34,299 nucleotides of DNA, from assembly GCA_026984835.1 (NCBI GenBank), contig JALSRI010000212.1:1-34299 (forward strand). Direction: 5' to 3'. Each line of letters begins with the position of its first letter. The first letter of the stretch is position 1. The notes under the pieces were generated by a model, which saw only the letters and a program-made list of their open reading frames with translations, ran no database searches and was not told the DNA's origin. Source of the DNA: Thiohalobacter sp. GTDB lineage: Bacteria > Pseudomonadota > Gammaproteobacteria > DSM-19610. The translations under genes were made by a program, and so were the position numbers. This document shows, piece after piece, positions 4,069-31,136 of the stretch.

Positions 4069-7000
4069 TCAGTTCTCGCGCTGAGGAATCAGCGTCTGGA
4101 TCAGGCTGGCCAGCAGCAGCGGCCAGAGGATCCAGTGGATGACGTTGACTGCGCCGGCATACAGCCACATCTCGCCGCGCGGCGCCAGGTAGGGCCAGGG
4201 GTCCCAGCCGATGATGGGCAGGTGATAGCGCGTCGCCAGGGCAAAGCCGTGGCCGAGGCGCGCCAGCCAGCCCTTCGACGTGAGGGTGGCGGGAACACGA
4301 TGCGTTCCGTCAGGGTCCGGCGCCGGAACCGTCCAGCCGCACGACCCGCCACCGTTGCGGCACCCCGGATCGAGCGCCTCTGCCAGGACGCCGGCTGCCT
4401 CCGGATCCTGGGTGATCTCCAGCAGCGACATGCGCGTCTCCGGTGTCAGCGTGACGGCGTCGGCATGGTCGACCGCGAACCACAGGGCTGTGAATACATA
4501 CCACACCGCCATGAAGGCCAGAATGGGCGCCCGCTTGGTGCCATAGCCGACGATGGAGTGCAGCAGCATCAGGGCGGTGGCGAAGCGCCGCTGCTCGCGC
4601 CACTGTTCCTGGCGGCGCATGGCGCGGTGCACCTGGTCGGCCAGCTGGCGGTTGCCCTGGTTGCGCTGTGTGCGTTCCATGCTGCTGTAGGTGGAGCGCT
4701 TGAATTCCGAGGAATGTTCCAGAATGCGGAGGATGCGCTTTTCCCGGTCGCCGTCGCCGCTGCCCAGCGTCCAGCGGTCGACCGACACATTGCTGAGATC
4801 CACCTGGTCCGGGAAGGGTTCGCTCATCTGCCAGTGGCCGATGCGGGCGCGTTCCACGATCACCTTGGGCTCGGGCGGAGCGATGCGGGTGGCGATGGGC
4901 AGGCCCAGCACCTGCAGGACGTCGGCGAAGGCCAGCTGGCGGGCGCGCAAGCGCCCACGCAGTTGCTGGAAGCCGGTCTCGTCTTCGCCGCCGGGCGGGT
5001 CGCTCCGCCCCTGCCGGCCCAGGGCGCGGTGTGACAGCCAGTTGATCTGCCAGACGTCGAACAGCAGGTAGAACAGGTAGCCGAGCAAGAAGAACAGCCC
5101 CGTGGCCCAGAACGGGATGCCGATGGCCGGGCCGTCCGGCCAGTGCCACGCCGCCAGGGCGAGCACGCCGCCGGCGGCGAGCATGGACGCCAGGGCCGAA
5201 ATCGCATGGAAGGTCCGAAACGCTATCCGCCTTGCGTTCGCCGGGCTGCCCGCTTCCTTTTCGCCAGGCAGCGGCAGCACCGAGCGCGCCATGGGGAGGC
5301 CGCGGTCCCACTGGTCGTAGCCGCAATGTACGCGCGCGCCCATCTCGCCGGCGAGCAGCCAGAAACGGCGCGCGATAGAGAGGCTGGCGGCCAGCAGTAC
5401 CGCCCAGGTCAGCCGTTCGCCGACCCCGAGTCCGGTCGGCTCCAGCAGCCCGAAGGGGTTGACCAGGAACAGGACGACGATCACCGTCAGCAGGCCCAGC
5501 GCTGCCACGGCCCGGCCCGCGACATGGGCGAGCACCGCCAGCAACGTGCCGGCCAGCAAGGCGAGGGGCAGCGGCCAGGCGCCTGCCTGGGCGAGCCGGG
5601 GTGCGGTCGGTACCAGGCAAGCAGCGAGCAGGGCCAGCGGATACAGGGCAAACAGGGCGGCCATCGCACCGGCGGCGCCGGACCAGCTGGCGTGCCCGCG
5701 GGCCGGTGCAGCCTGGCGGTGCGGTCGCTCGCCGTCGATGCAGCTGCCCGACACCACGAGGTGATCGACGCGGGCGCTGGACAGGTCGATGCCCCGGCCG
5801 TTCAGCCTGGCGCAGGCGCCTGTGCCACTGTCCGCAGCCCCTTTCTCCGGGCACAGCCGGAGCTTGCCCTTGATCGCGGCACCGCGCGCCTGGATGGCGC
5901 GCCCGGGGTGGTCCGCGTCGTTGCCGGTCTTGTCGATGCAGAGACCTTCCAGCCTGGCATCACCCTCGATGGTCGCCATGTTGAGGGTGACCGAAGTGCA
6001 GTGAACCTGGCGCACGCCTTCGCCAGCCACGCCGAGGAACAGGTTGCCGGCTGTGACATCGTCCAGATCCAGTGCCGTCACGTGGCCGCCCAGGATGCCG
6101 ATGTCCCCCTTGACCCGGGTGCCTGCCAGCGTCAGCGTGCCCAACTGCTTTGTCCCGTCGATCTCCCCGTCGGCGATGTCGACGTCTTCGATCACCAGAT
6201 CGCCGCCGCCGGCGCAGTCGGTCAGCGAAACCGGCCCCCGGGAGACCAGCCTGCACAGGCTGATGTCGCCGATGACCGGGAAGGCGGCCCCGGTGATCCG
6301 GTCGATGCGGGTTTCGGCCACCGCTTCGTCTTTTTTCCTTTTTCGTCCGCCCAGCTCGAGGGCGCCGATCTCCCGCAGCCGGTTCAGGCGCAGCTCACCC
6401 CGGACGGTTACGCCATCGATTGCCAGCTTTCCGCCGATCCGGCTCTCGGTGAGGTCGACGTCGGACAGTTCGATCGGCGCATCGCCGCTGCTGTCCCCGG
6501 CCGCTTCCGGCCGGCCCTCCAGGCGTATACGGTAGGGGCTGATGCGCAGATCGCGTCCCACCTTCATACTGCGCATCCGGGCCTCGCCGCCAATCGAGGT
6601 GCCCGCCAGCTGCAGGGTGCCCTCGAGTTCCAGCCCGTCCAGGTGCAGCGGCCCTTCCAGCCGGGCCCGTTGCAGATACAGGTCCCCTGCCAGGTCCGAA
6701 TCCGAGAGGTCGGTCACCCTTGAAATGGTCATGGCATCGTAGCGCCATCCATACAGGCGCATTCGTCCGCCGACCCTGGCATGGCGCATCTGCAGCTGCT
6801 CGACGCAGCTGTTGTCGAGTTCGAAATCCGAGCCCACGTCGATGAAATCGGCCAGGATTCCGGTTCTCTGGTCTCGCCCGGCCAGATACGCACTGTGCCG
6901 TCCGCGTCCGCCCGCCTCGTCCGTGACGTCCAGGTGGCGGCGTGCCTCGGGCCGCAGACTGCCGTCCGCTTCCAGCAGCCCGGCGCGAACCTTTTTCAGG

Positions 7001-10000
7001 AGCAGCCGGTGCCGGCAGCGCAGTCCGTTCATGTGGATCACGCGACAGTCGAGCAGCCAGCCGTCCTCGCCCACCTCGGGCAGATCGGCCACCGGTTCGC
7101 AGACCACTTCCCCGGCCTGCAAGCCCTGCAGATCGAGCAGGCCGCCGGCATCCCAGCTGCGCTGGCAGTCGGTCAGCACCTCGAGCCCGGTCAGGTCCAG
7201 CCTCCCGCCGATGGTGCAGTTTTCGAGCTGGACCTTGCCGAGGCGGGCGCGGGGCATGGCGAAGCCTGGCGCGCCCGCGTACTCCTGGCGCAGCTGTTTG
7301 GCGAGCGCCGGGTTGAAGAACGACAGGTTGCCGGAAATCCGGCAATCCGCCAGGACCAGTGTGCCGTTCTGGTCGAATACCGCATGCCGCTCGCCCCTGG
7401 CGGTTTCCTGCGGCGCCAGCATCCGGAGGCCGGTCAGATCCAGCGTCTCGGTCACCAGCCCGCGGATATAGAGGCCATGGCCGATGCGGCAGGGCTGTGG
7501 CCGGTCCGAGGCCGGCACCCGGCCCGGCCGGAAATAGACCGCCATGGCCTTGCCGGGAGACACCATGTCGACGCTGCCGCGCACGGTCAGGGCCTCGAAC
7601 TCCATGTGCCCGTCCACCCGGGCGCCACCCAGTATCAGGTTGCCGTCGATCTCGACCGGGCCGCTGTCGGCGGTAGTGCGGGCGTAGACGGCGTCGCGCA
7701 CGCGGCAGTGCGAGAGCGTCATGTCGCCATCGACCAGGATGGCGTCGAGGAGCACGCTGCCCGCCGACAGCTGGTTCAGGCAGACGGCGATGCCATTGTG
7801 GTCCGCCTTGAAATGGCTGGCCTCCAGTTGCAGGTTGCCCGACAGGGTGGCGGCCTGGAAACTCGCGCCACCGCAGAACAGGCACTGGTCCCAGACGATC
7901 AGGTCACCGCCTACCTGTGCATGCGCGGCGCTGAACGCTCGCCGGACGGCGCAGCGCGACAGGTGGACGTGACCCCGGGGGGCATGCAGGTAGTCCGCCT
8001 CGATCCGGTGGGCCAGCAGTCGGTCGCCGCGCAGCCCGCTGCGCAGCGTGGCATCGCGCAGCGTCAGGGAAGGGAGGTAGTCGCCAGCCTCCCTGCCCAC
8101 GTCATGCAGGGTGGTGGAGCCCTTGACGGACAGGCCGCGCAGGTCCAGGTCGAAGCGGTTACGGCCCCGTTTGCCGAACGATTTCCTGAAATCGATATCC
8201 GCGAGCGCGAGATCCTCCTCGATGCGGCTGTTGCGCAGTCGCAGTACGCCGTCGATACGGAAGCGGTCCAGTGTCAGGGCGGCAGGAAGGGTCATGTTGC
8301 CCAGGTCCAGGTCACCGGTGATCCAGACCCGGGTGTCCACTGCGGCCTGCCGGTACCGCTCGATGAAGCGGACCAACAGGGTCAGCGTCCGGCCGGAATC
8401 CGGCCGGACGGTCCCGCCGCCGGCCTGCAGGCACAGCCAGCGGCGGGTGCCGGGCGCCTCCATCAGGACCTGTTGCCAGGCTTTGCCGTCGCCGCCGAGG
8501 ACGTCCTCGAGGGCAAAGTCGCCAGCCGGGTCGCCGCGCCCGGCGGCCTGTTCCAGGCCCGACAGCAGCCGCTCCGTGGTGAGGATGTCGACCACGGCTT
8601 CCTCGAGCACGAACAGGCCGATGCGCTGCAACTGCTGGATCTCCTCGCCGGGGGGCGTCTCGCAGGCCTCGTCTTCCAGCATTTCGACCCGGCCGTCCGG
8701 CTGCACCCGGAACCGCGCCAGGCGTTGTCGTGAGCCGTGGGCGACCAGAACCCTCGAGACCACGAAGGAGCCGTCTTCGGCCCTTTCGATGCAGTCGCGG
8801 CCGACCGGTGCACCCAGCGCAAACGTGGCGATGCCCGCGTCGGCTGATTCCGGCGCCAGGGAACTGCAGAAGAACTCCAGGTAGTCGCCGACCCGTTCCT
8901 CGTCGCCGGCCGCGAACTGCAGGCCCAGTTCCCGGTTCAGCGCATGGATGACGTTGGAGCGCCAGTCGAGGCACACCAGCCGGGTGCGTTGTTCGTCCCG
9001 GTCGGCGATGGCGATGAACCGGGCGCGTTCCACTCTGCCGCCGTCTCCCGGCCGGAACACCTCGAACAACACACTGGTGGCATGCCCGCCGTCGTAGCAG
9101 GACAGCGGCCGGGCGCGGATGAGGGCGTCGTCGGCCTGGAACAGGCGGTCGAGTTCATCGGTCCAGAGGATGCGGTGGGCGAAGCGGAAGTCATCGGTGG
9201 TGTCTGCCGGCGCCAGGATGTCGCGCAGGGTGCCGGGGAACCGGCTGCCGACGTGGAAAGCGGACCAGGGGATGCGCTGGCCGGCCGGCCCGGCCTGCGG
9301 CTCGGTCAGCGCAGCATCCACCAGGCCCAGCTTGTCCAGGCTGCCCACCCAGGGCGGCGCCTCTCCCTCGATCGGCTCGTCGTCGAGCATCTCGACCCCG
9401 CCGTCCGCCTCCAGCAGCAGGCGGATCCGGAACAGCGCGCCGTCATAGGCCATGCGGGCCGCTTCCACCTCGGCGCGGCCTGCATCGCTGTTCCAGCGAA
9501 AGCCGTCGGGTGGATCCTTGCCCAGCAGGACGAAGGCCGTCTGCTGGCCCGACAGCGAGCCGCAGAAGTAGTCCAGGTAGTCCCAGGCGCGCTGCGGGTC
9601 GTCGAAGGACTTCAGGCCGAGGAGGGTGTTCAGCCGGTGGATGGGGGCCGAACTCCAGTCGAGCTGGTAGGGTCCGCCGCTGATGCGGTCTCCCTCCAGG
9701 GTGACCAGGAAACGCCAGCGGGCCAATGCGCTGCCTTCCAGCACTTCGAACAGCCAGGTCTCCTGCGGCGCCGGCGTGTCGAAGAACGACAGCCGCCGCG
9801 CGCACACTGCGCTGCCGTCGTCGTCGGCGACCCGCCCCAAGCGCTCACGGACGGCCCGGAGCAGGCGCGCCTCGATGCTGTCGGCCGTCGCCGATGACGC
9901 AGGTCCTGCCCGTGCTTCCGCCCCGGGGGCTGCCCAGCCGCGCTGCTCGAGCACGGCCCGGCAGACGGCGTTGATGCCCGGCCCGGCCCGCACGACCCGC

Positions 10001-10035
10001 CAGTCGACGGCCGGGGCGTCGGCAGGGTGGGTCAT
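4069..10035 (-). CDS. Giant beta-helix membrane protein with duplicated N-terminal module
   Basis: The 1988-residue product has three parts. Residues 1-500 hold two copies of a module, starting at LSFFD (about 82) and LSCYD (about 311). Each has an LDW-S motif and a DYLxFFC motif, then a strand unit containing VEMLxDE. Residues about 570-1445 are a long run of short degenerate repeats such as LDLGNMTLPAALTLDRFRID and LYLQRARLEGPLHLDGLELE, which predict a right-handed beta-helix like pentapeptide or bactofilin-type solenoids. Residues 1455-1988 contain about eight membrane helices. A segment with YSSMERTQRNQGN and IVGYGTKRAPIL resembles the C-termini of pentapeptide-repeat, ion-channel-like membrane proteins. 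No enzyme motif was seen. ATG 10035 is chosen because the open frame upstream (to 10413) would overlap the divergent protease gene and is not conserved-looking. The ribosome binding site is weak. The function is unknown; a ligand- or protease-controlled channel is my inference. Confidence 0.85.
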   Translation of the reverse strand: MTHPADAPAVDWRVVRAGPGINAVCRAVLEQRGWAAPGAEARAGPASSATADSIEARLLRAVRERLGRVADDDGSAVCARRLSFFDTPAPQETWLFEVLEGSALARWRFLVTLEGDRISGGPYQLDWSSAPIHRLNTLLGLKSFDDPQRAWDYLDYFCGSLSGQQTAFVLLGKDPPDGFRWNSDAGRAEVEAARMAYDGALFRIRLLLEADGGVEMLDDEPIEGEAPPWVGSLDKLGLVDAALTEPQAGPAGQRIPWSAFHVGSRFPGTLRDILAPADTTDDFRFAHRILWTDELDRLFQADDALIRARPLSCYDGGHATSVLFEVFRPGDGGRVERARFIAIADRDEQRTRLVCLDWRSNVIHALNRELGLQFAAGDEERVGDYLEFFCSSLAPESADAGIATFALGAPVGRDCIERAEDGSFVVSRVLVAHGSRQRLARFRVQPDGRVEMLEDEACETPPGEEIQQLQRIGLFVLEEAVVDILTTERLLSGLEQAAGRGDPAGDFALEDVLGGDGKAWQQVLMEAPGTRRWLCLQAGGGTVRPDSGRTLTLLVRFIERYRQAAVDTRVWITGDLDLGNMTLPAALTLDRFRIDGVLRLRNSRIEEDLALADIDFRKSFGKRGRNRFDLDLRGLSVKGSTTLHDVGREAGDYLPSLTLRDATLRSGLRGDRLLAHRIEADYLHAPRGHVHLSRCAVRRAFSAAHAQVGGDLIVWDQCLFCGGASFQAATLSGNLQLEASHFKADHNGIAVCLNQLSAGSVLLDAILVDGDMTLSHCRVRDAVYARTTADSGPVEIDGNLILGGARVDGHMEFEALTVRGSVDMVSPGKAMAVYFRPGRVPASDRPQPCRIGHGLYIRGLVTETLDLTGLRMLAPQETARGERHAVFDQNGTLVLADCRISGNLSFFNPALAKQLRQEYAGAPGFAMPRARLGKVQLENCTIGGRLDLTGLEVLTDCQRSWDAGGLLDLQGLQAGEVVCEPVADLPEVGEDGWLLDCRVIHMNGLRCRHRLLLKKVRAGLLEADGSLRPEARRHLDVTDEAGGRGRHSAYLAGRDQRTGILADFIDVGSDFELDNSCVEQLQMRHARVGGRMRLYGWRYDAMTISRVTDLSDSDLAGDLYLQRARLEGPLHLDGLELEGTLQLAGTSIGGEARMRSMKVGRDLRISPYRIRLEGRPEAAGDSSGDAPIELSDVDLTESRIGGKLAIDGVTVRGELRLNRLREIGALELGGRKRKKDEAVAETRIDRITGAAFPVIGDISLCRLVSRGPVSLTDCAGGGDLVIEDVDIADGEIDGTKQLGTLTLAGTRVKGDIGILGGHVTALDLDDVTAGNLFLGVAGEGVRQVHCTSVTLNMATIEGDARLEGLCIDKTGNDADHPGRAIQARGAAIKGKLRLCPEKGAADSGTGACARLNGRGIDLSSARVDHLVVSGSCIDGERPHRQAAPARGHASWSGAAGAMAALFALYPLALLAACLVPTAPRLAQAGAWPLPLALLAGTLLAVLAHVAGRAVAALGLLTVIVVLFLVNPFGLLEPTGLGVGERLTWAVLLAASLSIARRFWLLAGEMGARVHCGYDQWDRGLPMARSVLPLPGEKEAGSPANARRIAFRTFHAISALASMLAAGGVLALAAWHWPDGPAIGIPFWATGLFFLLGYLFYLLFDVWQINWLSHRALGRQGRSDPPGGEDETGFQQLRGRLRARQLAFADVLQVLGLPIATRIAPPEPKVIVERARIGHWQMSEPFPDQVDLSNVSVDRWTLGSGDGDREKRILRILEHSSEFKRSTYSSMERTQRNQGNRQLADQVHRAMRRQEQWREQRRFATALMLLHSIVGYGTKRAPILAFMAVWYVFTALWFAVDHADAVTLTPETRMSLLEITQDPEAAGVLAEALDPGCRNGGGSCGWTVPAPDPDGTHRVPATLTSKGWLARLGHGFALATRYHLPIIGWDPWPYLAPRGEMWLYAGAVNVIHWILWPLLLASLIQTLIPQREN

Positions 10036-10198
10036 GTCGGACAACCTGTGTTCATGGGACGGCCTTGCAGTGGGGCGACTACAGGGTATGTCCGGGCCGG
10101 GTGCCTTTTCAAGCGAACGCCGGATCGCGCGAATTTGAGAACCCCGCGCAACTCGGTTATGGTCACGACAAAACAACGACCTCCGAAGCAGGGGATGC
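10036..10198. promoter_or_regulatory. Divergent promoter region of the beta-helix/protease locus
   Basis: This 163-base spacer separates the two oppositely transcribed arms. For the plus strand there is a good sigma70-like promoter: TTGAGA at 10135-10140, a 17-base spacer, and TATGGT at 10158-10163. It would start transcription near 10170, about 29 bases before the ATG. For the minus strand the best match is TTGAAA (plus-strand TTTCAA at 10107-10112) with only a poor -10. A shared control region would allow co-regulation of both arms. No clear operator palindrome was seen. Confidence 0.45.
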
Positions 10199-13100
10199 AT
10201 GCCGTACTGGACCACCCTGGGACGTGATCCACGCGCGCCCGAGTCGCCGGGCGCCTGGCAGGCCGTGGAAGACAGGGAAGCCGCGTCCGTATGGCAGGCC
10301 TTGCCGCAGCTGCTGCGCCATGCCATGACGCTGCCGGAGGGGGCCGAACGGCGGGTGCTCAAGATGCCGCTGTCGTTCTGCCCCGACCGTGTTCTGTACG
10401 AATTCGTCGCCACCGATACGCTGCCGCGGCTGCCACGCTATGTGCTGGGCGGCGCGGCGGGCGCGGTGCTGCTCGACGGGTCGAATGCGCCCGTCTACGC
10501 CCTGGGCCGGTCGGGCGCCCTGCGGCTGGACGAGCAGACGGTCGCCGACTACGTGCGCTTCTTCCTCTCCCACGTGGTGGGCCGCGACGGCCGCTTCCTG
10601 CCGCTGGAATCCGTCGACACAGTGCCGCGCCTGGACGGCTTCGGCGCCGGGCACCAGGCCCTGCTGGCCCGGCATGCACGTCCGCTCGCAGCCGGGAGGG
10701 TGAAACGCAGGGGGGAGTGCTTCGAACTGGAGACGAGCCTGCTGCTCGGCCAGTCCCTCGCACCCGTGACCGTCCGCGTCGATGCGGCGGGGCGCGTCGA
10801 TCTCGACATCGGCGAAGTCGTGGCCGAGGCGCTGCCGCTGGCGCCGGACCGGCCGGCCGACGCCGACCATCCGGGCCGGCCGCGCTTCGATTTCCTGGAC
10901 GGCTGGCGCGCCGCCGCCGCCCTGGATCCGGCCCTGCGCGCGCAGCTGCAGCGTTCGCCCGATCTGGCCGCTGCCATGGAGGAGGGCGGTCTTGCATTCC
11001 AGGCGCTGCCCTTCTTCGATGGCGTGGTGCTGCTGCGCCGCGGCAAGGACCGCCCGCCCCTGGGTTTCGGCGCCCATGCGCTGCTGTCGGCGCAGGGCAT
11101 CTTCCCCCTGCACGGCAGCTCGACGCCCATCTTCGAAGCCATCGAGCGCGAGACCTTCCGGCTCGACGACGCCAGCGTCGCCGACTACCTCACCTTCTTC
11201 TGCGACTTCGTCCACGGGGAGGAAGGCCCGTTCCGGCTGGTCGCCAGGCCGCGGGAACTGAACGCCGCCACCGCCCCGGCCGGCGACGGCGACCCGGCCC
11301 GGCTCGACGCACCGCAGCTGCCCTACCGGCAACTGTCGCCGCGCCAGCTGGACAGCCTCATCGGCCCCGTGCAGGCGCGCCGCGACGGAGACGGCTGGCG
11401 CTGCGCGGCGCTCAACCAGTATGGGAACAACCTGTTCATGGCCCGTTTCCTGGTCCGGCCCACGGGCGAGATCGAGATGACCGAAGACCAGGTCCTGGTC
11501 ACCGACATCCCCATCGACGCCTCGCTCGACCGCATGCGCACCTGGATACAGCCGGTGTCTGCGGGGGCGGAGGGCGGCCTGTCTGCGCCGGGCAGCGACA
11601 AGTGGCCCGCCTACCTCAACGCCCGCAAGCTGGAATCGTCGATCCTCGACGAATACGTGCGCCAGCAACTGCTGCGTGCGCTGCGCGAGGGGCAGGGCGG
11701 CCCCCTGCTCGATGTCGACGCGGCGGCCGACGACGAGACGCTGCTGCGGGCGCTGGCCGTCTTCCTGTACCGGGCCTGGCCGGTCGTGATCATCGAGTCG
11801 CCGATCCCCTGCATCGAGGAGATCGTCGCCCGCCTGCTGCGCGAGCGCATCGACCGGTCCGGTCCGTGCAAGAAGATGCAGGCGGCACCGCAAGACGCCT
11901 CGCAGGGCGTGCTGCCCTCCATCGACGATGGCGACACGCTGCTGGTGTCGCTGCACCAGTGGCATCGCATTCTGCGGCCGGAGGCGGTCGCCTACCGGCT
12001 CGGGGTCACCGATGCCGTCACCCTCGTCGGCTGCGATACGCCCGCGGTGGTGCCGGATGCCCTGCAGCGGGTGGCGGACATCGAGCTGACGCTGGGCGGC
12101 GTCGATGACGCGCTGTTCCGAACCCTGTTCTGCGGGCTGTTCGACTGCGACTGGCCGGACGGCGGCGCCGGCGGCGACGGGCTCTGGCCGCACTATGTGA
12201 TGCCCGGCGATTTCTACGTGCCGGTGCGCGACATGCTGCAGCGGCGCTATGCGGTGGCGGAACCCGCCGACGCCGGGCCGGACACGGACGACGCCGGGGC
12301 GTCGCCGCGCTGGACACCGGCCGCGGCGCTGGCCGCCGTCCGGGCGCGGGTGCAGGCGCGGCTGTCGGCGATCGAGGTCGACGACGGTCCGGGGCTGGAC
12401 GAGCTGCACGGGCTGGGCGAGGCCCGGGCGGTGTTGAAGGACCTGCTGGCCGACATCCGGGCGGCGGTCTCCGGCGCCATCCCCTGGGACGCGGTGGACC
12501 GCGGCATGCTGCTGGTGGGCGAGCCGGGAGTGGGCAAGACATTGCTGGCGCGCGCCCTGGCGCGCGACGGCGGCGTGCGCTTCATCCACGCCAGCGAGGC
12601 GCGCTGGATCGAAGGCACCGACGGCCTGTCGGCGCACATCCTGGCCATCCGCGCCACCTTCGCCGAGGCGCGCCGCAGCGCCCCCTGCATCCTGTTCATC
12701 GACGAACTCGATTCCATCGGTAACCGGCAGCTGTTCGAAGGGCGCAACAAGGAATACTGTACCGAGATCGTCAACACCCTGCTGCAGGAACTGCAGGGCG
12801 TCATCGACCGCCAGGGTGTATTCGTCATCGGCGCCACCAATTACCTGGAGTACGTCGACCCGGCGCTGACCCGCGCCGGGCGGCTGGACCAGGTGGTGCG
12901 GGTGCCGCGGCCCGACCGCCGGGCGCTGCAGGGCATACTGGACTACTATCTGCAGCCCTACGCGCGCGACGGCCGTCTCGACGCCGACATCGACAGCAGC
13001 GCGCTGGCGGGCATGGCGCTGGGTGCCACCGGCGCCGACATCGAGTTCTTCGTGCGCGATGCCGCGCGGCGCGCCCGCAAGGCGGGTGTGCCGCTCGGTC

Positions 13101-13753
13101 ACGGCCATCTGGCGGCCGCCATCACCCGGGCGCCGCGCGACCGCGGCGCCGCGCGGCGGCTGGCGCCGGAGGAACAGGCGCGCACCGCCGTTCACGAGGC
13201 CGGCCACGCCATCGCCCTGCTGGCCTGCGGGCACTACCCGGCGCGCCTGTCGGTGGTCTCCATCATTCCGCGCAGCAACGGCAGCCTGGGGTTCACGGGG
13301 GCGCTGCCCGACGCGCGCAACACCCTGACGCGCCGTGCCTGCGACGAGTATCTGCAGGTGCTGCTGGCGGGCAGGGCGGCGGAGGAGCAGGTCTATGGCA
13401 GCGATGGCGTCAGCAGTGGCGCCGGTGGCAGCAGCGACAGCTCGGACCTGGCCCTGGCCACGCGCTGGGCGGCGCGCATGGTGGGTGAGCTGGGTTTCGG
13501 GCCCGCCGGCGAGCTGCGCTGGCAGCCGCAGCCGGAGTCGGCGGCCGCTGCCGACCGGGTGCGCCGTCTGCTCGACCAGGCCTACACCGCCGTGTCGGCG
13601 CGTCTGGCCGGTCACCGGCCGCTGATCCACGCCCTGCGCGACGCGCTGCTCGACGAGCATGAACTGTACGCGCCGGCGCTGTACCGGCTGGCGGCCGAAC
13701 ACGACCTGCCGGTCGCCGCCGGGGAGGAGGAACGCCATGTCCCGGGTCCCTGA
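10199..13753 (+). CDS. FtsH-like AAA+ zinc protease with duplicated sensor module
   Basis: The 1184-residue soluble protein has no membrane segments, unlike FtsH. Residues about 55-210 and 265-440 are two copies of the module also found in the beta-helix protein (LSFCPD and LPFFDG starts, DYVRFF and DYLTFFC). Residues about 480-650 look like a degenerate AAA+ domain with no Walker A (VVIIESPIP, VTLVGCDTP). Residues about 715-960 are a complete AAA+ domain: GEPGVGKT 774-781, ILFIDE 831-836, GATN 878-881 and arginine fingers R892 and R895. Residues about 985-1170 are a peptidase M41 domain with HEAGH 999-1003 and D1083 as the likely third zinc ligand. It should unfold and degrade protein substrates using ATP. 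ATG 10199 has AGGGG upstream and follows a good promoter. The next gene overlaps its end. Confidence 0.88.
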   Translation: MPYWTTLGRDPRAPESPGAWQAVEDREAASVWQALPQLLRHAMTLPEGAERRVLKMPLSFCPDRVLYEFVATDTLPRLPRYVLGGAAGAVLLDGSNAPVYALGRSGALRLDEQTVADYVRFFLSHVVGRDGRFLPLESVDTVPRLDGFGAGHQALLARHARPLAAGRVKRRGECFELETSLLLGQSLAPVTVRVDAAGRVDLDIGEVVAEALPLAPDRPADADHPGRPRFDFLDGWRAAAALDPALRAQLQRSPDLAAAMEEGGLAFQALPFFDGVVLLRRGKDRPPLGFGAHALLSAQGIFPLHGSSTPIFEAIERETFRLDDASVADYLTFFCDFVHGEEGPFRLVARPRELNAATAPAGDGDPARLDAPQLPYRQLSPRQLDSLIGPVQARRDGDGWRCAALNQYGNNLFMARFLVRPTGEIEMTEDQVLVTDIPIDASLDRMRTWIQPVSAGAEGGLSAPGSDKWPAYLNARKLESSILDEYVRQQLLRALREGQGGPLLDVDAAADDETLLRALAVFLYRAWPVVIIESPIPCIEEIVARLLRERIDRSGPCKKMQAAPQDASQGVLPSIDDGDTLLVSLHQWHRILRPEAVAYRLGVTDAVTLVGCDTPAVVPDALQRVADIELTLGGVDDALFRTLFCGLFDCDWPDGGAGGDGLWPHYVMPGDFYVPVRDMLQRRYAVAEPADAGPDTDDAGASPRWTPAAALAAVRARVQARLSAIEVDDGPGLDELHGLGEARAVLKDLLADIRAAVSGAIPWDAVDRGMLLVGEPGVGKTLLARALARDGGVRFIHASEARWIEGTDGLSAHILAIRATFAEARRSAPCILFIDELDSIGNRQLFEGRNKEYCTEIVNTLLQELQGVIDRQGVFVIGATNYLEYVDPALTRAGRLDQVVRVPRPDRRALQGILDYYLQPYARDGRLDADIDSSALAGMALGATGADIEFFVRDAARRARKAGVPLGHGHLAAAITRAPRDRGAARRLAPEEQARTAVHEAGHAIALLACGHYPARLSVVSIIPRSNGSLGFTGALPDARNTLTRRACDEYLQVLLAGRAAEEQVYGSDGVSSGAGGSSDSSDLALATRWAARMVGELGFGPAGELRWQPQPESAAAADRVRRLLDQAYTAVSARLAGHRPLIHALRDALLDEHELYAPALYRLAAEHDLPVAAGEEERHVPGP

Positions 13754-15758
13754 CAACCGCGCCAGGCTGGATCACCGCGTCTACAAGGTCTGGATCGAGG
13801 TCCTGCTGCGCGAGGCGCTGCGACGCAGCCCGGCCTGGCGCGAGCCGGCGCCGGCCGCGGCCGACGGTGACGGGATGGGGGAGTTTGCTCGCTATGTGCA
13901 GCGCGTGGCGCCGGTCATGCTGGTCGAATCGTCGCTGCCCTATGCCGAGCACCTGGTGATGGAACTGATTGCCGAACGTGGCAGTTTCCGTGACCCGCTG
14001 CATCAGCCGTCGCTGCTGTCGGGGCAGTGGCAGACCAGCGGCAAGCGGCCGCTGAGCGCGCGGACGCCGCTGGTGTTGTCCTTTCACGAGCCCAACGAGT
14101 GGCACCAGAGCCTGGAGCTGGTGCACGACATCGAGACCACCGACAACCCGGTGCTGATCGGCTGCGATCACATCAGCCAGGTGCCGGCCGAGTTCCACCG
14201 CCTGATCGACTTGCGGCTGGCCCTGGCGTCGGCGGACGCCGACCGCTTCGACGCCATCTTCGAAACCCTGTTCGGGGAGCCGTTGCCCGACGCCGGGCCG
14301 GAGGACGGGCGCTGGCGCGATTTCGTCACGCCGGCCGATGTGCAGCCGCCGCTGCGACTGGACTATCCGCCCGCCGAGGCCGCCCGCTACATCCGCCAGC
14401 GGGTCACCAGCCGCCTGAGCCGCCTGGAGGTGGACGACGCCCCCTCGATCGACGAGCTGCACGGCCTGGGCGAGGCGCGCCGGATCGCGCTGGATCTCAA
14501 GCACGATCTGCGGCTGGCGCTGCAGGGGCGGCTGGACTGGAGCGAGGTGGACCGCGGGCTGCTGCTGGTCGGCCCGCCCGGCACGGGCAAAACCACGCTG
14601 GCGAAAGCCATCGCGCGCGACTGCGCGGTGAAGTTCATCAACGCCAGCGCCAGCGACTGGCAGTCGGCGGATGGCCTGGGTCTGCACCTGGCGGCCATCC
14701 GCGCCACCTTCGAGGACGCGCGGCGCTTTGCGCCCGCCATCCTGTTTATCGACGAAATCGACTCCATCGGCAACCGCGAGACCCTGAGCGGCGCCAGCCA
14801 GACCTACCAGGCCACGGTCACCAACTACCTGCTGGAACAGCTCGACGGTTTCGCCGAGCGCGGCGAGCTGGTGGTCATCGGCGCCACCAACGACGAGGAC
14901 AGGGTCGATCCGGCGCTGCGCCGCGCCGGGCGCCTGGACCAGGTGGTGCAGATCCCGTACCCGACCATCCGCGCCCTGGCCGGCATCTACGCCTGGCACC
15001 TGAAAGCGCACGCCGGGGCCGGCCGGCTGGCGGACGACGTGGACTGCGACGCGCTGGGGCGCCTGTCGTTCGGGCTGACCGGCGCCGACGTGGAGTTCTT
15101 CGTGCGCGGCGCCGCGCGGCGCGCACGCAAGCGCCGCGACCTGATTCGCCACGACGACCTGGTGGCCGAGATCCTGCGCCGCCCGCGCGACGGGGCGGGC
15201 GCCGCGCCCTTCGATGCAGCGACCATCCGGCGGCTGGCCGTGCATGAAGCAGGCCACGCCACCCTGCGCCTGCTGGGCAGGCGTGGCGGCGAGGAGATCA
15301 GCTATGTCTCCATCGCACCGCGCAGCGATGGCCGTATCGGTTACCTGGCGGCCTTCGACGACGAGCGCGTGTCCATGACCCGGGACGACTACCTGCACGA
15401 GATCCGGGTGCTGCTGGCCGGTCGCGCGGCGGAAGACCTCCTGTTCGGCACCGAGGGCGTCTCGGACCTGGCCGGCAACTACGGCGAGCACAGCGATCTG
15501 GCGCAGGCGACCCGCATCGCCCGCCACCTGCTGGGTGTATCCGGCCTGGCGGGCGAGGGCGACCTGACCTGGTACGCGGCCTTGCCGGCGGGGCTGCACC
15601 GGCCCGTCGAGACGGCGATCGAACCGCTGCTGCGCGAGGCCTACGAGACGGCGCTGCGCGAGCTGGAGGAACACCGGCCGTTGCTCGAGACCATCGCCAC
15701 GGCGCTGAACCGGCAGCAGGAACTCGACGGCGCCACCCTGCGCGCCTGGCGCGGCTGA
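13737..15758 (+). CDS. Cytosolic FtsH-like AAA+ zinc protease
   Basis: The 673-residue protein is a paralogue of the C-terminal 700 residues of its upstream neighbour but lacks the duplicated N-terminal modules. Residues about 50-200 are a degenerate AAA-like domain (VMLVESSLP, VLIGCDH). Residues 230-460 are an intact AAA+ domain preceded by IDELHGLGEAR: GPPGTGKT 279-286, ILFIDEID 335-342, GATN near 382, R396 and R399. The M41 peptidase has HEAGH 503-507 and D587 as the probable third zinc ligand. No membrane helix is present, so it should act in the cytosol. ATG 13737 follows a near-perfect GGAGGAGGAA site and overlaps the preceding gene by 17 bases, so translation is probably coupled and the two proteases may form a mixed ring. 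The frame extends upstream to 13659, but that is overlap shadow. Confidence 0.9.
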   Translation: MSRVPDNRARLDHRVYKVWIEVLLREALRRSPAWREPAPAAADGDGMGEFARYVQRVAPVMLVESSLPYAEHLVMELIAERGSFRDPLHQPSLLSGQWQTSGKRPLSARTPLVLSFHEPNEWHQSLELVHDIETTDNPVLIGCDHISQVPAEFHRLIDLRLALASADADRFDAIFETLFGEPLPDAGPEDGRWRDFVTPADVQPPLRLDYPPAEAARYIRQRVTSRLSRLEVDDAPSIDELHGLGEARRIALDLKHDLRLALQGRLDWSEVDRGLLLVGPPGTGKTTLAKAIARDCAVKFINASASDWQSADGLGLHLAAIRATFEDARRFAPAILFIDEIDSIGNRETLSGASQTYQATVTNYLLEQLDGFAERGELVVIGATNDEDRVDPALRRAGRLDQVVQIPYPTIRALAGIYAWHLKAHAGAGRLADDVDCDALGRLSFGLTGADVEFFVRGAARRARKRRDLIRHDDLVAEILRRPRDGAGAAPFDAATIRRLAVHEAGHATLRLLGRRGGEEISYVSIAPRSDGRIGYLAAFDDERVSMTRDDYLHEIRVLLAGRAAEDLLFGTEGVSDLAGNYGEHSDLAQATRIARHLLGVSGLAGEGDLTWYAALPAGLHRPVETAIEPLLREAYETALRELEEHRPLLETIATALNRQQELDGATLRAWRG

Positions 15759-21978: not shown

Positions 21979-22629
21979 ATGCTGAATGTCCTGCAACAGG
22001 TGCTGCAACGGCTCTATGGAATCGAGGTGAGCTACCGGGTTTCCGATTTCGTCATCACCGACGCCCGCCTGGCCCGTCTGCTGGGCGGCACCGCGGCCGC
22101 CGATGCACCCGAGAACCTGCTCATCCGCCAGGACGGCGAGGACGTCGACCTGAGCCTGTACCTGGATGCCGCCCTGTTCGAGCGTTTCGAGGGCGGGAAC
22201 CCGCTGCGCTACCTGCACGCGAGCAATATCGACAGCTTTTGCGTGGTGCTGGAGGGAGTGAGCCACTTCCTCTACCTGGCATGGCACGCCGCGGCTGATC
22301 GTCGCATCAGCCTGCTGGAGCTGGAGATGCAGGCCGAGGTCGACAAGTACGCCGTGCTCGCCATGCTGCTCAAGTCGCAGCGGCGTTGCTCCCTGCCGGC
22401 CTGGTTGCGGCGCTGGTTGTTCGAGAAGGTCAGTTTCCATTCCAGCCTCGACAGCCGGCAACTGGAGCGCTATCTGCACGCGAATCATTTCGCGAGGCGC
22501 TACTGCCGCCACCTGGAGCGGCGTTTCCGCTGGCGCTGGAACGGTGTCGACCTGGTGCAGGAGCTGCGCCGCTTCTACCGTCTCGGCCAGTCACAGAAGA
22601 TACGTTTCATCAACCACGCCTGCAGCTGA
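21979..22629 (+). CDS. Conserved-looking protein of unknown function
   Basis: The 216-residue protein begins MLNVLQQVLQRLYGIEVSYRVSDFVITD and is rich in acidic and aromatic residues. It has no signal peptide or membrane helix. The segment NIDSFCVVLEGVSHFLYLAWHAA and the late basic, arginine-rich region (YCRHLERRFRWRWNG) look structured. I do not recognise a domain. The start is supported by GGGAGG just before ATG 21979; an upstream in-frame ATG at 21937 lacks a good site. A TAGAAT at 21944-21949 could be its -10 box. It sits 7 bases before the acyltransferase gene, so the two probably form an operon and may work together. Confidence 0.75.
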   Translation: MLNVLQQVLQRLYGIEVSYRVSDFVITDARLARLLGGTAAADAPENLLIRQDGEDVDLSLYLDAALFERFEGGNPLRYLHASNIDSFCVVLEGVSHFLYLAWHAAADRRISLLELEMQAEVDKYAVLAMLLKSQRRCSLPAWLRRWLFEKVSFHSSLDSRQLERYLHANHFARRYCRHLERRFRWRWNGVDLVQELRRFYRLGQSQKIRFINHACS

Positions 22630-22636
22630 TTCCCTG

Positions 22637-23803
22637 GTGCCGAACGATCCGACTGTAACCGTGGTGTCCTCCGCATCGGCGTTCCGCTCCCTGCGCGGGG
22701 AGTGGGACGGGCTGCTGGATGCCGCCGCCTCGCCCAGTATCTTCCTGGGATGGGACTGGCTGTACAGCTGGTGGGAAGTGTATGCCGGTCCTGCCGACCG
22801 GTTGCACATCGTGCTGGTGCGGGATGGCGGCCGCCTGGTCGGTCTTGCGCCGCTCTACGTGACGCCGGTGCACTGCCTCGCCGGGCTGCGCGCGCGACGA
22901 CTGCAGTTCATCGGCATGGGCGAGCCGGAATGGGAGGAAGTGGCGTCGGAGCGCATGGACGTCATCGCCCGGCGCGGCTGCGAGGCGCAGGTCGTGTCGG
23001 CCCTGTGGCGCTCCCTGTCCGCCGACCACGGCTGGGACGAGGCCCTGCTGGACAACATGCCGGAGGACGGGGTGCTGCTGTGCCGCCTGAGCGGGCTGCT
23101 GGCGGCGGCCGGCTGGTTCCACCGGCTCGCTGACGAGGGCATCGACTACCACATCGACTTCAGCGGCGACTGGGAGACCTACCTGGCCTCGTTGTCGCGC
23201 AACCGCAGGAAGCAGATCCGCAGCAACCTCAGGCGTTTTGCCCGGGAGGGACAGCTGGTGCACAGGCGCATCCGTTCCCGGGACGAGCTGGAAGCCGCGT
23301 TCGAGGAGCTGGTGAGGCTGCACACGCTGCGCTGGCGGCGCCGCGGCGAGAGCGGGGTGTTCGGTGCGCCGCGTTTCCACGCCTTCCAGCAGCGGGTCAT
23401 GCCGCGCCTGCTGGAGTCCGGATGCCTGGACCTGCACCTGGTCGCGCTGGACGGGGAAACCATCGCGGCGCTCTACAACATGCGCCTCGGGGATACGGTC
23501 TATTCCTACCAGAGCGGCTTCAGCTACCCGCGCCATTCGCCGGGCCTGCTGTCGGATACCCTGGCCATGGAGCAGGCCATCGAGGAGGGTTGCCGCCGCT
23601 ACGACTTTCTCAAGGGCGGGGAGGACTCCTTCAAGGCGGGTTTCGGCTGCAATACCACCCGCATCTGCTCGCTGTCGGTCTGCAACCGCACCCCCGCGGG
23701 ACGGCTGCTGGCCACGGCGAGGCGCCTGCAGCGGCTCGCCGGGCGGTTGAGCCGCCTCGCCGGCAGGGACGCCGGCCGCCGTTGCCGGCGCCACTGCCGC
23801 TGA
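22637..23803 (+). CDS. CelD/BcsL-type GNAT acyltransferase
   Basis: The 388-residue protein fits the CelD/BcsL family of GNAT-fold acyltransferases. LRGEWDGLLDAA and FLGWDWLYSWWEVY open the N-terminal half. SLSRNRRKQIRSNLRRF marks the start of the second half, and ALYNMRLGDTVYSYQSGF and YDFLKGGEDSFKAGFG are the characteristic C-terminal strands. Members are cytoplasmic and are linked to exopolysaccharide or cellulose modification, but the substrate here is unknown. The start is uncertain: GTG 22637 follows the previous stop by 7 bases but has no strong ribosome binding site, while upstream in-frame codons would overlap the previous gene. The C-terminal 35 residues are strongly basic. Confidence 0.85.
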   Translation: MPNDPTVTVVSSASAFRSLRGEWDGLLDAAASPSIFLGWDWLYSWWEVYAGPADRLHIVLVRDGGRLVGLAPLYVTPVHCLAGLRARRLQFIGMGEPEWEEVASERMDVIARRGCEAQVVSALWRSLSADHGWDEALLDNMPEDGVLLCRLSGLLAAAGWFHRLADEGIDYHIDFSGDWETYLASLSRNRRKQIRSNLRRFAREGQLVHRRIRSRDELEAAFEELVRLHTLRWRRRGESGVFGAPRFHAFQQRVMPRLLESGCLDLHLVALDGETIAALYNMRLGDTVYSYQSGFSYPRHSPGLLSDTLAMEQAIEEGCRRYDFLKGGEDSFKAGFGCNTTRICSLSVCNRTPAGRLLATARRLQRLAGRLSRLAGRDAGRRCRRHCR

Positions 23804-27994: not shown

Positions 27995-28681
27995 ATGCCC
28001 CAACGCAGCCTGTTCGCCCTGGCGTTGTTCTTCTCCCTGGTCACCCACACCCTGGCGGCCCTGTACTGGCGTCATGCCGCCGGCAGCATGGCCGGCGGTG
28101 ACCGGGGCAGCGTGGTGTTGCGCGTGCGGGTGGCCGGTCCGGCACCGGGACCGGTTGCAGCCCGGGTGGAACAGAAAGCGCCGCCAGCAGGGAAAAGGGT
28201 CCGCCGGAAGCGACCGGCGGTGAGGAAAAGGTCACGCCCGCGACCGCCGGCCGAAGCCCCGCGGCGCGCGCAGCCGGAACCGGAGCCGGTGAGGGAACGG
28301 ACGCGACAGACGGCGGTCGCGGCCCTGACGGCGGGCCCGCCGGCGCCGGCCGGGGAGGGTCGGCCCCGGCAGGCGCCGGCCGTGGCCCGCGAAGGGCTGG
28401 CAGAGGACTACCTGAGCCGGGTGGTGGCCCGTATCGAGGCGTTCCGCAAGTACCCGGTGACGGCGCGCCGGCGGCGCCTGGAAGGGCGGGTGGATGTCGA
28501 CCTGGCCATCGATTGCAGCGGCCGGCTGGCGTCCCTGCAGACGCACGGCGGGCCGGTGCTGCTGCGCAGGGCGGCGGCCGGTTCGGTGCGGCGTGCCCTG
28601 CCGCTGCCGCCGCCGGCCGACTGCCCGCGCACCGTGCGTTATACGATGGTCTATAGCCTGCGCCCGGCCAGCGATCGCTGA
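27995..28681 (+). CDS. TonB-like energy transducer
   Basis: The 228-residue protein has the TonB plan. An N-terminal membrane anchor (SLFALALFFSLVTHTLAALYW) is followed by a periplasmic stretch rich in arginine, lysine, proline and alanine (about 55-130), and then a C-terminal TonB domain. The C-terminal domain starts at DYLSRVVARIEAFRKYP, continues RLEGRVDVDLAID and ends YTMVYSLRP. It would pass the proton-motive force from an ExbBD complex to an outer-membrane receptor. No exbB or exbD is in the window. Its position divergent from the OprC-type receptor suggests it is dedicated to copper uptake. ATG 27995 is chosen because the anchor starts there; the ribosome binding site is weak. Confidence 0.88.
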   Translation: MPQRSLFALALFFSLVTHTLAALYWRHAAGSMAGGDRGSVVLRVRVAGPAPGPVAARVEQKAPPAGKRVRRKRPAVRKRSRPRPPAEAPRRAQPEPEPVRERTRQTAVAALTAGPPAPAGEGRPRQAPAVAREGLAEDYLSRVVARIEAFRKYPVTARRRRLEGRVDVDLAIDCSGRLASLQTHGGPVLLRRAAAGSVRRALPLPPPADCPRTVRYTMVYSLRPASDR

Positions 28682-28713
28682 GCCAAGCCTGCCGCGACCC
28701 GGCAGAGTGTCAT

Positions 28714-28755
28714 TTGACACAGATCAAGGCATGTCACACACCCGCCCCCTATGCT
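28714..28755 (+). promoter_or_regulatory. FNR/DNR-type class II promoter of nosZ
   Basis: TTGAC-ACAG-ATCAA at 28714-28727 differs from the FNR consensus TTGAT-N4-ATCAA at one base. Its centre is 28720.5. A TATGCT -10 box at 28750-28755 is placed exactly as in class II FNR promoters (site centred 41.5 bases before a start near 28762). Transcription would then begin about 65 bases before the nosZ ATG. This predicts induction at low oxygen or by nitric oxide through an FNR, ANR or DNR protein. Confidence 0.75.
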
Positions 28756-28826
28756 CCGGTCGCATATCGCCCATCCAGGACAACGATCGTTTCTCCCTAC
28801 ACGCGCCCAGCAGAGAGGTTCCCACC

Positions 28827-31136
28827 ATGAAGATACCGCGAAAATCCCTGTTCACAGCAGTCACCGCCGCGCTGTTCAGCCTGTCGGTCGCCGCACCGGT
28901 ATGGTCGGCGGACACGCTGAAGGACGTGATGAAGAAACGCGGCCTTACCGAGAAGGACATACTGGCGGCGGCCAAGACCTATACGCCCACGGGCGGCCGC
29001 GACGAGTACATCGTGCTCAGCTCCGGTGGTCAGAGCGGGCAGCTGATCGTCTATGGCATACCGTCCATGCGCATCCTCAAGTACGTGGCGGTGTTCACCC
29101 CCGAGCCCTGGCAGGGCTATGGCTTCGACGACGAGTCCAAGGCCGTGCTGGCGCAGGGCCGCATAAACGGCAAGGACATCACTTACGGTGATACCCACCA
29201 TCCGGCCATTTCCGAGACCAACGGCGACTACGACGGCCGTTACGTGTTCATCAACGACAAGGCCAACCCGCGCATCGCGGTGATCGACCTGCACGACTTC
29301 GAGACCAAGCAGATCGTCGTCAATCCCTTCTTCAGTTCCGCACACGGCGGCACGTTCGTCACACCGAACACCGAGTATGTCATGGAGGCCGCACAGTACC
29401 CGGCCCCGTTCAGCAGGGACTTCGTTCCGCTGGAAGAGTTCAATGACAAGTACCGCGGCGGCCTGACCTACTGGAAGTTCGACAACGAGAAGGGCCGCCT
29501 CGACCCCTCGCAGTCGTTCACCTTCGAGCTGCCGCCCTACAGCCAGGATCTGTCCGACGCGGGCAAGGGTCCCAGCATGGGCTGGGGATTCACCAATTCC
29601 TTCTGCTCGGAGCGCTACGTCGGCGGCAACGAGCGTGGTCGCCCGCCCTTCGAGGCAGGCTGTTCGTCCAAGGACACCGACTTCCTGCACGTGACCAACT
29701 GGAAGAAGGCGGCCGAGCTGGTCAAGGCCGGCAAGGTCAAGAAGGTCAAGGGCAGCTACCTGATCCCGATCAAGCAGGCGATCAAGGAGAAGTTGCTGTA
29801 CCTGGTGCCGGAGCCGAAGAGCCCGCATGGCGTGGACGTGACACCGGACGGCAAGCGCATCGTGGTATCCGGCAAGCTCGACAGCCACACCTGGGTATAC
29901 AGCTTCGACAAGATCATGAAGGCCATCAAGGCCGGCAAGTTCGAGGGCAAGGATGCCTATGGAATCCCGATCATCGCCCTGAAGGATGCGCTGGACAAGT
30001 CGGTCAACGTCGGCCTGGGGCCGCTGCACACGCAGTTCGACTCCAAGCCCTGCGTGGCCTATACCTCCATCTACGTGGATTCCATGATCACCAAGTGGGA
30101 CTACTGCAAGGGCAAGGTGCTGGACCAGCTGCCCATCCACTACAACGTCGGTCACCTGATGACCATGGAGGGCGACACCGTCAGCCCGGACGGCAAGTAC
30201 CTGGTGGCGTTGAACAAGCTGGCCATCGACCGCTTCAACCCGGTCGGCCCGCTGCATCCCCAGAACCACCAGCTCATCGACATCAGCGGCGACAAGATGG
30301 AGCTGCTGTATGACATGCCGCTGCCGCTGGGCGAGCCCCACTACGCGGTGGCCATCAAGGCCGACAAGCTGAAACCGGCCATCCGCTACAAGTCGGGCTG
30401 GAACAGCCGTGCCGACAAGCGTTCCGAGTACAAGACCCGTGCCGGGCGCGAGAAGACCGAGCGCACCTGCGACGCCAGCGGCAAGTGCACGGTCGAGGTC
30501 TATGGCACCACCATCCGTTCCCACATCACGCCGGAGATCATCGAGGCGCAGGAAGGCGACACCGTCAAGCTGCACTTCACCAATCTCGAGCGTGCCGAGG
30601 ACGAGGTGCACGGTTTCGCCATGTACGGACAGAACGTGCAGCTCTCCATGGAGCCGGGCAAGACCGCGTCCGCGACCTTCGTGGCAGACAAGGCAGGCGT
30701 CTATCCCTACTACTGCACCGAGTTCTGCTCGGCCCTGCACCTGGAGATGGAAGGCTACCTGCTGGTCAAGCCCAAGGGCTACAAGGCGACCAAGGCCAGC
30801 CTGAAGGCGGGTACCAACTACACCAAGGCGGACTACGAGAAGCAGGTCAAGACCAACCTGGAGACCCAGAAGGTCATCGACCAGGTGGTCGGCTTCATCA
30901 CCAGCCACAACTACAAGGACTTCCCGACGGTAGTGGCCCTGGTGGAGGATGCCACCGATCAGCTCGGCTTCGCCAAGGATGCCCGCGCCAAGGCCGAGGC
31001 AGCCGCCGCCAAGGGCGACTGGAACAACGCCATGCTGTGGGCCAACCAGTGGTGGCAGTACCAGGTCAAGACCGCCGACCTCGGTCTGCGCGCCAAGACC
31101 TACCTGGAAGAGCACGGCGCGAAGAAGGTCAAGTGA
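28827..31136 (+). CDS. nosZ: Nitrous oxide reductase, Sec-type signal
   Basis: The 769-residue periplasmic enzyme reduces N2O to N2. All seven CuZ histidines are present: H124, H125, H173, H334, H401, H443 and H505. The CuA ligands are H595, C630, C634, H638 and M641. The signal (MKIPRKSLFTAVTAALFS, cleavage near SA-DT) is of Sec type without a twin arginine, as in clade II (atypical) NosZ. After the CuA domain (about residue 650) there is a further helical extension of about 115 residues (from GYKATKASLKAG to the end). It has no CxxCH, unlike the cytochrome-fused epsilonproteobacterial enzymes, and clade I proteins stop near residue 640. GAGAGG precedes ATG 28827. An FNR-type promoter drives it. 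Confidence 0.96.
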   Translation: MKIPRKSLFTAVTAALFSLSVAAPVWSADTLKDVMKKRGLTEKDILAAAKTYTPTGGRDEYIVLSSGGQSGQLIVYGIPSMRILKYVAVFTPEPWQGYGFDDESKAVLAQGRINGKDITYGDTHHPAISETNGDYDGRYVFINDKANPRIAVIDLHDFETKQIVVNPFFSSAHGGTFVTPNTEYVMEAAQYPAPFSRDFVPLEEFNDKYRGGLTYWKFDNEKGRLDPSQSFTFELPPYSQDLSDAGKGPSMGWGFTNSFCSERYVGGNERGRPPFEAGCSSKDTDFLHVTNWKKAAELVKAGKVKKVKGSYLIPIKQAIKEKLLYLVPEPKSPHGVDVTPDGKRIVVSGKLDSHTWVYSFDKIMKAIKAGKFEGKDAYGIPIIALKDALDKSVNVGLGPLHTQFDSKPCVAYTSIYVDSMITKWDYCKGKVLDQLPIHYNVGHLMTMEGDTVSPDGKYLVALNKLAIDRFNPVGPLHPQNHQLIDISGDKMELLYDMPLPLGEPHYAVAIKADKLKPAIRYKSGWNSRADKRSEYKTRAGREKTERTCDASGKCTVEVYGTTIRSHITPEIIEAQEGDTVKLHFTNLERAEDEVHGFAMYGQNVQLSMEPGKTASATFVADKAGVYPYYCTEFCSALHLEMEGYLLVKPKGYKATKASLKAGTNYTKADYEKQVKTNLETQKVIDQVVGFITSHNYKDFPTVVALVEDATDQLGFAKDARAKAEAAAAKGDWNNAMLWANQWWQYQVKTADLGLRAKTYLEEHGAKKVK

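Follow-up and report, generated by a model that had tools for sequence, protein, structure and literature searches.

Three neighbouring genes in a 34,299 bp stretch of a Thiohalobacter sp. draft genome (contig C212; the whole stretch is called the window below) encode a very large membrane protein, P0001, and, divergently from it, two soluble proteases, P0002 and P0003. P0001 and P0002 carry homologous copies of one domain (the module), the catalytic motifs of both proteases are intact, neither protease has a membrane anchor, the gene set is conserved as an operon in a second genome (G289) and the module is also present on STAND proteins. Judged from the sequences, the three genes may form one rare, module-linked system in which a protease driven by nucleoside triphosphate (NTP) is coupled by the shared domain to a membrane effector; a probability of roughly 0.4 is given to this reading. 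The host genome is a draft of 2.87 Mb in 259 contigs, with an estimated contamination of 4.3%.

Gene layout

The genes and the region between them are as follows.

P0001, 4069-10035, (-) strand: 1988 residues; two N-terminal modules, a long beta-helix, about seven transmembrane (TM) helices and a conserved C-terminal domain.
P0002, 10199-13753, (+) strand: 1184 residues; two modules, N-domain, AAA and Peptidase_M41; soluble.
P0003, 13737-15758, (+) strand: 673 residues; N-domain, AAA and Peptidase_M41; soluble.
Divergent intergenic region, 10036-10198, no strand: start-to-start gap between P0001 and P0002.

The first-pass annotation, made from the DNA sequence, had described a 1988-residue protein on one arm and two AAA+ zinc proteases on the other, sharing a 163-base divergent control region. 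The gene calls match this description, and the gap was measured as exactly 163 bp. A sigma-70-like site directed towards P0002 was located at 10135-10163 (one site found, 0.0 expected). The start of P0003 was assigned to the ATG at 13737, which lies behind a strong ribosome-binding site, GGAGGAGG, and not to 13659. Since P0003 begins before P0002 ends, and behind such a site, P0002 and P0003 are probably translationally coupled, that is, co-translated.

The shared module

Four copies of the module were delimited with hidden Markov models (HMMs).

P0001 copy 1, 9355-9861, (-) strand: residues about 59-227; domain E = 2.6e-33.
P0001 copy 2, 8653-9141, (-) strand: residues about 299-461; domain E = 1.2e-29; AlphaFold2 pLDDT 75, pTM 0.70.
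P0002 copy 1, 10253-10855, (+) strand: residues about 19-219; domain E = 1.2e-22.
P0002 copy 2, 10955-11521, (+) strand: residues about 253-441; domain E = 5.7e-46, and E = 4.3e-17 with the HMM that excludes P0002.

That repeated modules tie the two arms together, as had been claimed, was confirmed by searching across the arms: an HMM built without P0002 recovered P0002 at E = 6.6e-23 and one built without P0001 recovered P0001 at E = 4.7e-54, the best of 2000 shuffled controls scoring 7.4 bits. With a larger HMM each of the four copies reached about 1e-22 or better per domain. The modules of P0001 and P0002 are thus homologous, copies of a single domain of about 180 residues with the consensus LPFY..LDGSS.PIH.LN..VADYL.FFC.FV.GEEGPF...ArF.V...G.vEMLEDEP. 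The family has no model in Pfam, NCBIfam or PADLOC and no sequence match in the PDB. AlphaFold2 modelling, which here relied on shallow alignments of window and related-locus sequences only, gave for the four window copies a moderately confident model with a pLDDT of 75 and a pTM of 0.70, with strands, two helices and strands in that order. This domain is real and undescribed.

The protease pair

The domains of the two proteases were assigned as follows.

P0002 N-domain, 11711-12406, (+) strand: common to P0003, from the alignment; possibly a degenerate AAA domain.
P0002 AAA ATPase domain, 12506-12907, (+) strand: GEPGVGKT, ILFIDE, AGRLDQ; PF00004 E = 1.8e-29.
P0002 Peptidase M41 domain, 13160-13669, (+) strand: HEAGH; PF01434 79.7 bits (cut-off 29.9).
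P0003 N-domain, 13839-14459, (+) strand: from the alignment with the P0002 N-domain.
P0003 AAA ATPase domain, 14559-14960, (+) strand: GPPGTGKT, ILFIDE, AGRLDQ; PF00004 E = 2e-35.
P0003 Peptidase M41 domain, 15228-15737, (+) strand: HEAGH; PF01434 66.6 bits (cut-off 29.9).

Both domains exceed the Pfam cut-offs in both proteins. Intact Walker, arginine-finger and HEAGH sites and the lack of membrane anchors had been predicted at the first pass. In the alignment, Walker A and B, the AGRLDQ arginine finger, HEAGH and the third-ligand Asp (SDLA.AT) were all found in both proteases, and the hydrophobicity scan gave no TM anchor ahead of either AAA domain; P0003 has no hydrophobic peak at all, and P0002 has a single marginal one, inside the N-domain. 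This N-domain, of about 200 residues, occupies the position of the membrane anchor of FtsH. Its register fits the sensor-1-to-lid region of an AAA domain without the P-loop, and it is possibly a P-loop-less, degenerate AAA domain; the identity is kept conditional because the comparison with AAA by hhalign was not significant. Among 29 genomes checked, the N-domain was found in three only, namely the host (G000), G289 and G970, and it had no match in viral contigs or plasmids.

The pore-1 site reads DGLSAH in P0002 and DGLGLH in P0003; the FtsH-type aromatic motif (F-V/Y-G) is present in neither, and the membrane-type relative L006 has FYG. Against the NCBIfam FtsH equivalog the proteins score 218 and 215 bits, below the cut-off of 600. 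Among PADLOC models, the AAA part of the proteases alone is matched (IetA/TRIP13) and P0001 matches no model; no specific anti-phage model covers any of the three proteins as a whole.

As a separate observation, plasmids of Alphaproteobacteria encode soluble AAA-M41 proteins that lack the module, often next to metallophosphoesterase genes and twice with DUF6634. Proteases of this kind lie near metallophosphoesterase genes at L008, L010 and L100 (plasmids of Methylorubrum, Rhizobium and Bradyrhizobium); those of L008 and L010 have a WQ..HL-type pore loop, and TIR, S8 protease and MBL genes occur in the vicinity at some of these loci.

The beta-helix membrane protein

Beyond its modules, P0001 was divided into three parts.

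Beta-helix, pentapeptide-like, 5716-8448, (-) strand: residues about 530-1440; about 41 coils if there are 22 residues per coil.
Five hydrophobic helices, 5071-5667, (-) strand: residues 1457-1655, from the Kyte-Doolittle scan; partly common to G100.
C-terminal domain, 4072-4878, (-) strand: helical linker (STY..E..LRNQG..LAD.VHRAMRRQEQWR), TM helix 1837-1855, loop RYHVPII.WDPWPYLAPRG, TM helix 1961-1979.

The very long beta-helix proposed at the first pass was recovered as a stretch of about 910 residues in which hydrophobic residues and glycine each recur with a period of 5.4-5.6 residues (z about 6 against shuffles). This period is confined to residues 530-1440, being absent from the N-terminal part of P0001 and from P0002; an exact period of 5.0 tested negative, whereas 5.4-5.6 was positive. 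Pentapeptide_3 falls below its cut-off in P0001 and above it in the relatives from G645 and G570, for which reason the beta-helix is taken to be of the pentapeptide type. The presence of membrane helices also stands, with the count lowered from the expected eight or so to seven by the Kyte-Doolittle scan.

The C-terminal domain is 55-58% identical in G289 and G100. Its profile weakly matches proteins of G1100 and G1071 (E from 5e-4 to 3e-5), which are pentapeptide-type membrane proteins ending in the order helix-TM-loop-TM. By analogy with these, a channel-like end of P0001 is plausible.

Conservation of the three-gene set

Relatives of P0001 are rare. They were found in two of 274 other genomes of the class and three of 397 other genomes drawn from the phylum, these homologs being those of G289, G100, G645, G310 and G570, and in one of 368 other genomes in a second class draw. 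None occurs among the other sampled genomes of the same family or in plasmids, and the C-terminal domain has no match in viral contigs.

The complete set is found in G289, a Chromatiales metagenome-assembled genome from a different family of the class, as an operon in the order P0002-like, P0003-like and P0001-like with an ATGA overlap. Its P0001-like gene is divided between two contigs; a (GSGKD)n-coding repeat within this gene opens contig C282 (L017:1-126) and probably broke the assembly there. Orthologous proteases of the window and G289 are 56% identical and paralogous ones 44-45%, and therefore the protease pair predates the split of the lineages and has been retained as a pair. The N-terminal part of P0001 is only 28% identical in G289.

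Elsewhere the parts are arranged differently. G970 has a module-AAA gene, ended by the contig edge ahead of the M41 part, which is divergent from a second AAA-M41 gene (L068:3037-10559, contig 92), both being of the soluble type; TY-Chap1 and STAND-TPR genes are found at the same locus. The module is fused to the beta-helix protein in G645 and G570, and in G310 the modules have a gene of their own, immediately upstream of the one for the beta-helix protein. As to the co-occurrence proposed as a check on the system, the whole set is a reordered operon in G289, and in G970, G100, G645, G310 and G570 the protease pair or the beta-helix protein occurs alone. The link between protease and beta-helix protein is not obligatory.

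In the window, no exact direct or inverted repeats of at least 10 bp border the three-gene block. The GC content at third codon positions of the block resembles that of neighbouring genes; composition therefore does not show a recent foreign origin. Absence of the set from the sampled genomes of the same family suggests gain or widespread loss.

The module in other genomes

In the class draw around G310, treated as Alphaproteobacteria on the basis of named plasmid relatives, the module was found in 23 of 337 genomes, in most cases as a free-standing protein about 200-270 residues long. Viral contigs contained none. In G692 a module gene overlaps a STAND-like gene. On Sinorhizobium plasmids the module forms the C-terminus of a 1650-residue nSTAND1-ankyrin protein whose gene adjoins a patatin gene, the latter matching PADLOC phospholipase-effector models (E = 7e-47; CBASS-like). 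A second copy of the module is found there in a small protein whose gene is divergent; the window has a parallel layout. These nSTAND1-ankyrin-module, patatin and divergent-module loci (L103:5409-12552 of Sinorhizobium meliloti pEm1132b and L104:5701-12645) are candidates for a conflict system in their own right. On a Thiodictyon plasmid the module ends a STAND-TPR protein; BREX pglW and toxin-antitoxin genes lie at a distance of about 10 kb.

Two further loci were recorded. In G780 (L074:8364-16122) a lone module gene lies between the rnpA/yidC region and genes that read as type IVB (Dot/Icm-like) secretion genes, and in G752 (L072:7795-10886) three module genes lie within about 3 kb.

Other features of the window

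A nitrous-oxide reductase (NosZ-like) gene was identified at 28494-31136 with cytochrome c and copper-receptor genes close by, from which the host is probably a denitrifier. A tRNA-Ala(ggc) was called by ARAGORN at 23303-23378, inside an acetyltransferase open reading frame (22544-23803, (+) strand); either the tRNA or the reading frame is probably a false call.

Comparison with known systems

The window proteases resemble FtsH in the order of the AAA and M41 domains, the Walker motifs, the arginine finger, HEAGH and the third-ligand Asp. Unlike FtsH, they have no TM anchor or periplasmic domain, carry the N-domain in that place, have an altered pore-1 loop and score far below the NCBIfam cut-off given above.

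FtsH-containing vWA-MoxR ternary conflict systems are NTP-dependent, multi-gene systems (Kaur et al., 2020, eLife 52696, PMC7159879). The N-terminal part of their FtsH-type AAA protein is a second, inactive FtsH-type AAA domain, sometimes accompanied by a further N-terminal domain (PMC7159879). An FtsH-type AAA protein with an N-terminal domain in an NTP-dependent multi-gene setting is common to both, and the N-domain here is possibly of the same inactive-AAA nature. The window differs by its pair of M41 proteases and its membrane protein with a beta-helix, and no MoxR or vWA Pfam domain was found among the main flanking open reading frames scanned in it.

With pentapeptide-repeat membrane proteins P0001 has in common the 22-residue-coil signature and possibly the helical linker followed by a TM-loop-TM C-terminus; it differs in its two N-terminal modules, the roughly 41 coils, the five extra TM helices and a Pentapeptide_3 score that is itself below the cut-off. 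The pairs of STAND NTPase and CBASS-like patatin on Sinorhizobium plasmids also carry this module, both in the STAND protein and in the small divergent one, but combine a STAND-ankyrin sensor with a phospholipase where the window has AAA-M41 proteases and a beta-helix protein. Searches of the open-licence literature for soluble FtsH, M41 with STAND, beta-helix pore systems and STAND-patatin-ankyrin returned no description, and both the module and the three-part arrangement appear to be undescribed.

Proposed mechanism and alternatives

The module is attached to NTP-dependent enzymes (AAA-M41 and STAND), is attached to membrane proteins or stands free, and is for this reason best read as an adaptor or sensor domain that would couple the NTP-dependent protease to the membrane effector. 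The pairing of NTP-driven protease and membrane effector is itself the best reading by analogy with NTP-dependent conflict systems (PMC7159879). P0002 and P0003 would form a soluble, ATP-driven zinc protease, probably as a mixed ring. P0001 would be the membrane effector or receptor, with its beta-helix anchored by the C-terminal two-helix membrane domain and the additional helices. The shared module, as a signal-recognition or adaptor element, would either bring the protease to P0001 or make both arms answer one trigger. ATP-dependent unfolding or degradation might then switch the state of P0001, or of a client held on it. STAND ATPases encoded next to a CBASS-like phospholipase carry the module too, which suggests a membrane-acting response to conflict or stress.

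Several results weigh against this module-linked system. Relatives of the whole three-gene set are very few. Such a protease is absent from the genomes of four of the six beta-helix relatives (G100, G645, G310 and G570), and therefore the membrane protein needs none in general; conversely, G970 has the protease pair and no P0001-like beta-helix protein. The lone modules of Alphaproteobacteria have no conserved partner beyond local synteny. The fold of the module has no recognized relative, Foldseek searches of the PDB and BFVD giving no match at E ≤ 0.001, and the AlphaFold2 model of the P0001 C-terminal domain was of low confidence (pLDDT 49) and was not used. As to defence islands, enrichment in which had been proposed at the first pass as a check, the block is surrounded in the window by ordinary housekeeping genes and no defence island, and relatives of the module on plasmids adjoin STAND, CBASS-like phospholipase and BREX genes.

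A less likely but serious alternative is envelope proteostasis with anchoring in trans, in which P0001 would be a scaffold recruiting the anchor-less FtsH-like protease, and envelope or membrane proteins held on the beta-helix would be degraded. The first-pass annotation had named proteostasis or envelope-stress control as an alternative. In its favour, the proteases are related to FtsH and have no TM segments, modules are shared with a partner that is a large membrane protein, and two more M41 proteins are kept in the host genome outside the window. Most P0001 relatives, however, occur without such a protease, an aromatic motif of the FVG type, found in the membrane-type L006, is missing from the pore-1 loop, and STAND proteins, which also carry the module, are no proteostasis factors.

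It is decidedly unlikely that the genes are independent, share a promiscuous module and became neighbours by horizontal transfer without any joint function. The separate occurrence of the proteases in G970 and of the beta-helix protein in G100, G645, G310 and G570, together with the frequency of lone modules in Alphaproteobacteria, would be expected in that case; the complete, rearranged three-gene operon in the distant genome G289 and the retention of the same module in both arms would not.

Gasdermin-like execution, in which the proteases would cut P0001 and so free or open a pore, with death or arrest of the cell as the outcome, is improbable: a membrane protein is indeed paired with proteases, a likeness to bacterial gasdermins in general idea only, and its C-terminal two-TM domain has a conserved inter-helix loop and is weakly related to pentapeptide-type membrane proteins, but the normal activity of AAA+ M41 proteases is processive degradation and not a single cut, no gasdermin or caspase-/trypsin-like protease was matched by Pfam in the window proteins, no conserved cleavage linker was identified, the C-terminal model is poor and most beta-helix relatives are without a protease. 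The pore-plus-protease parallel drawn at the first pass is therefore not upheld, the protease class being M41 and not caspase- or trypsin-like.

Within the module-linked system, the more specific proposal that a soluble AAA+ zinc protease pair operates a beta-helix pore or receptor through a sensor or adaptor domain also found on STAND immune-type ATPases, as the first example of its kind, is considered unlikely. The new domain family joins four kinds of protein: soluble M41 proteases, beta-helix membrane proteins, STAND ATPases and free-standing proteins. Should the module be an adaptor, it would offer a direct handle on how bacterial NTP-dependent enzymes connect to membrane effectors, and M41 proteases with altered pore loops would become candidates for a role in conflict or stress.

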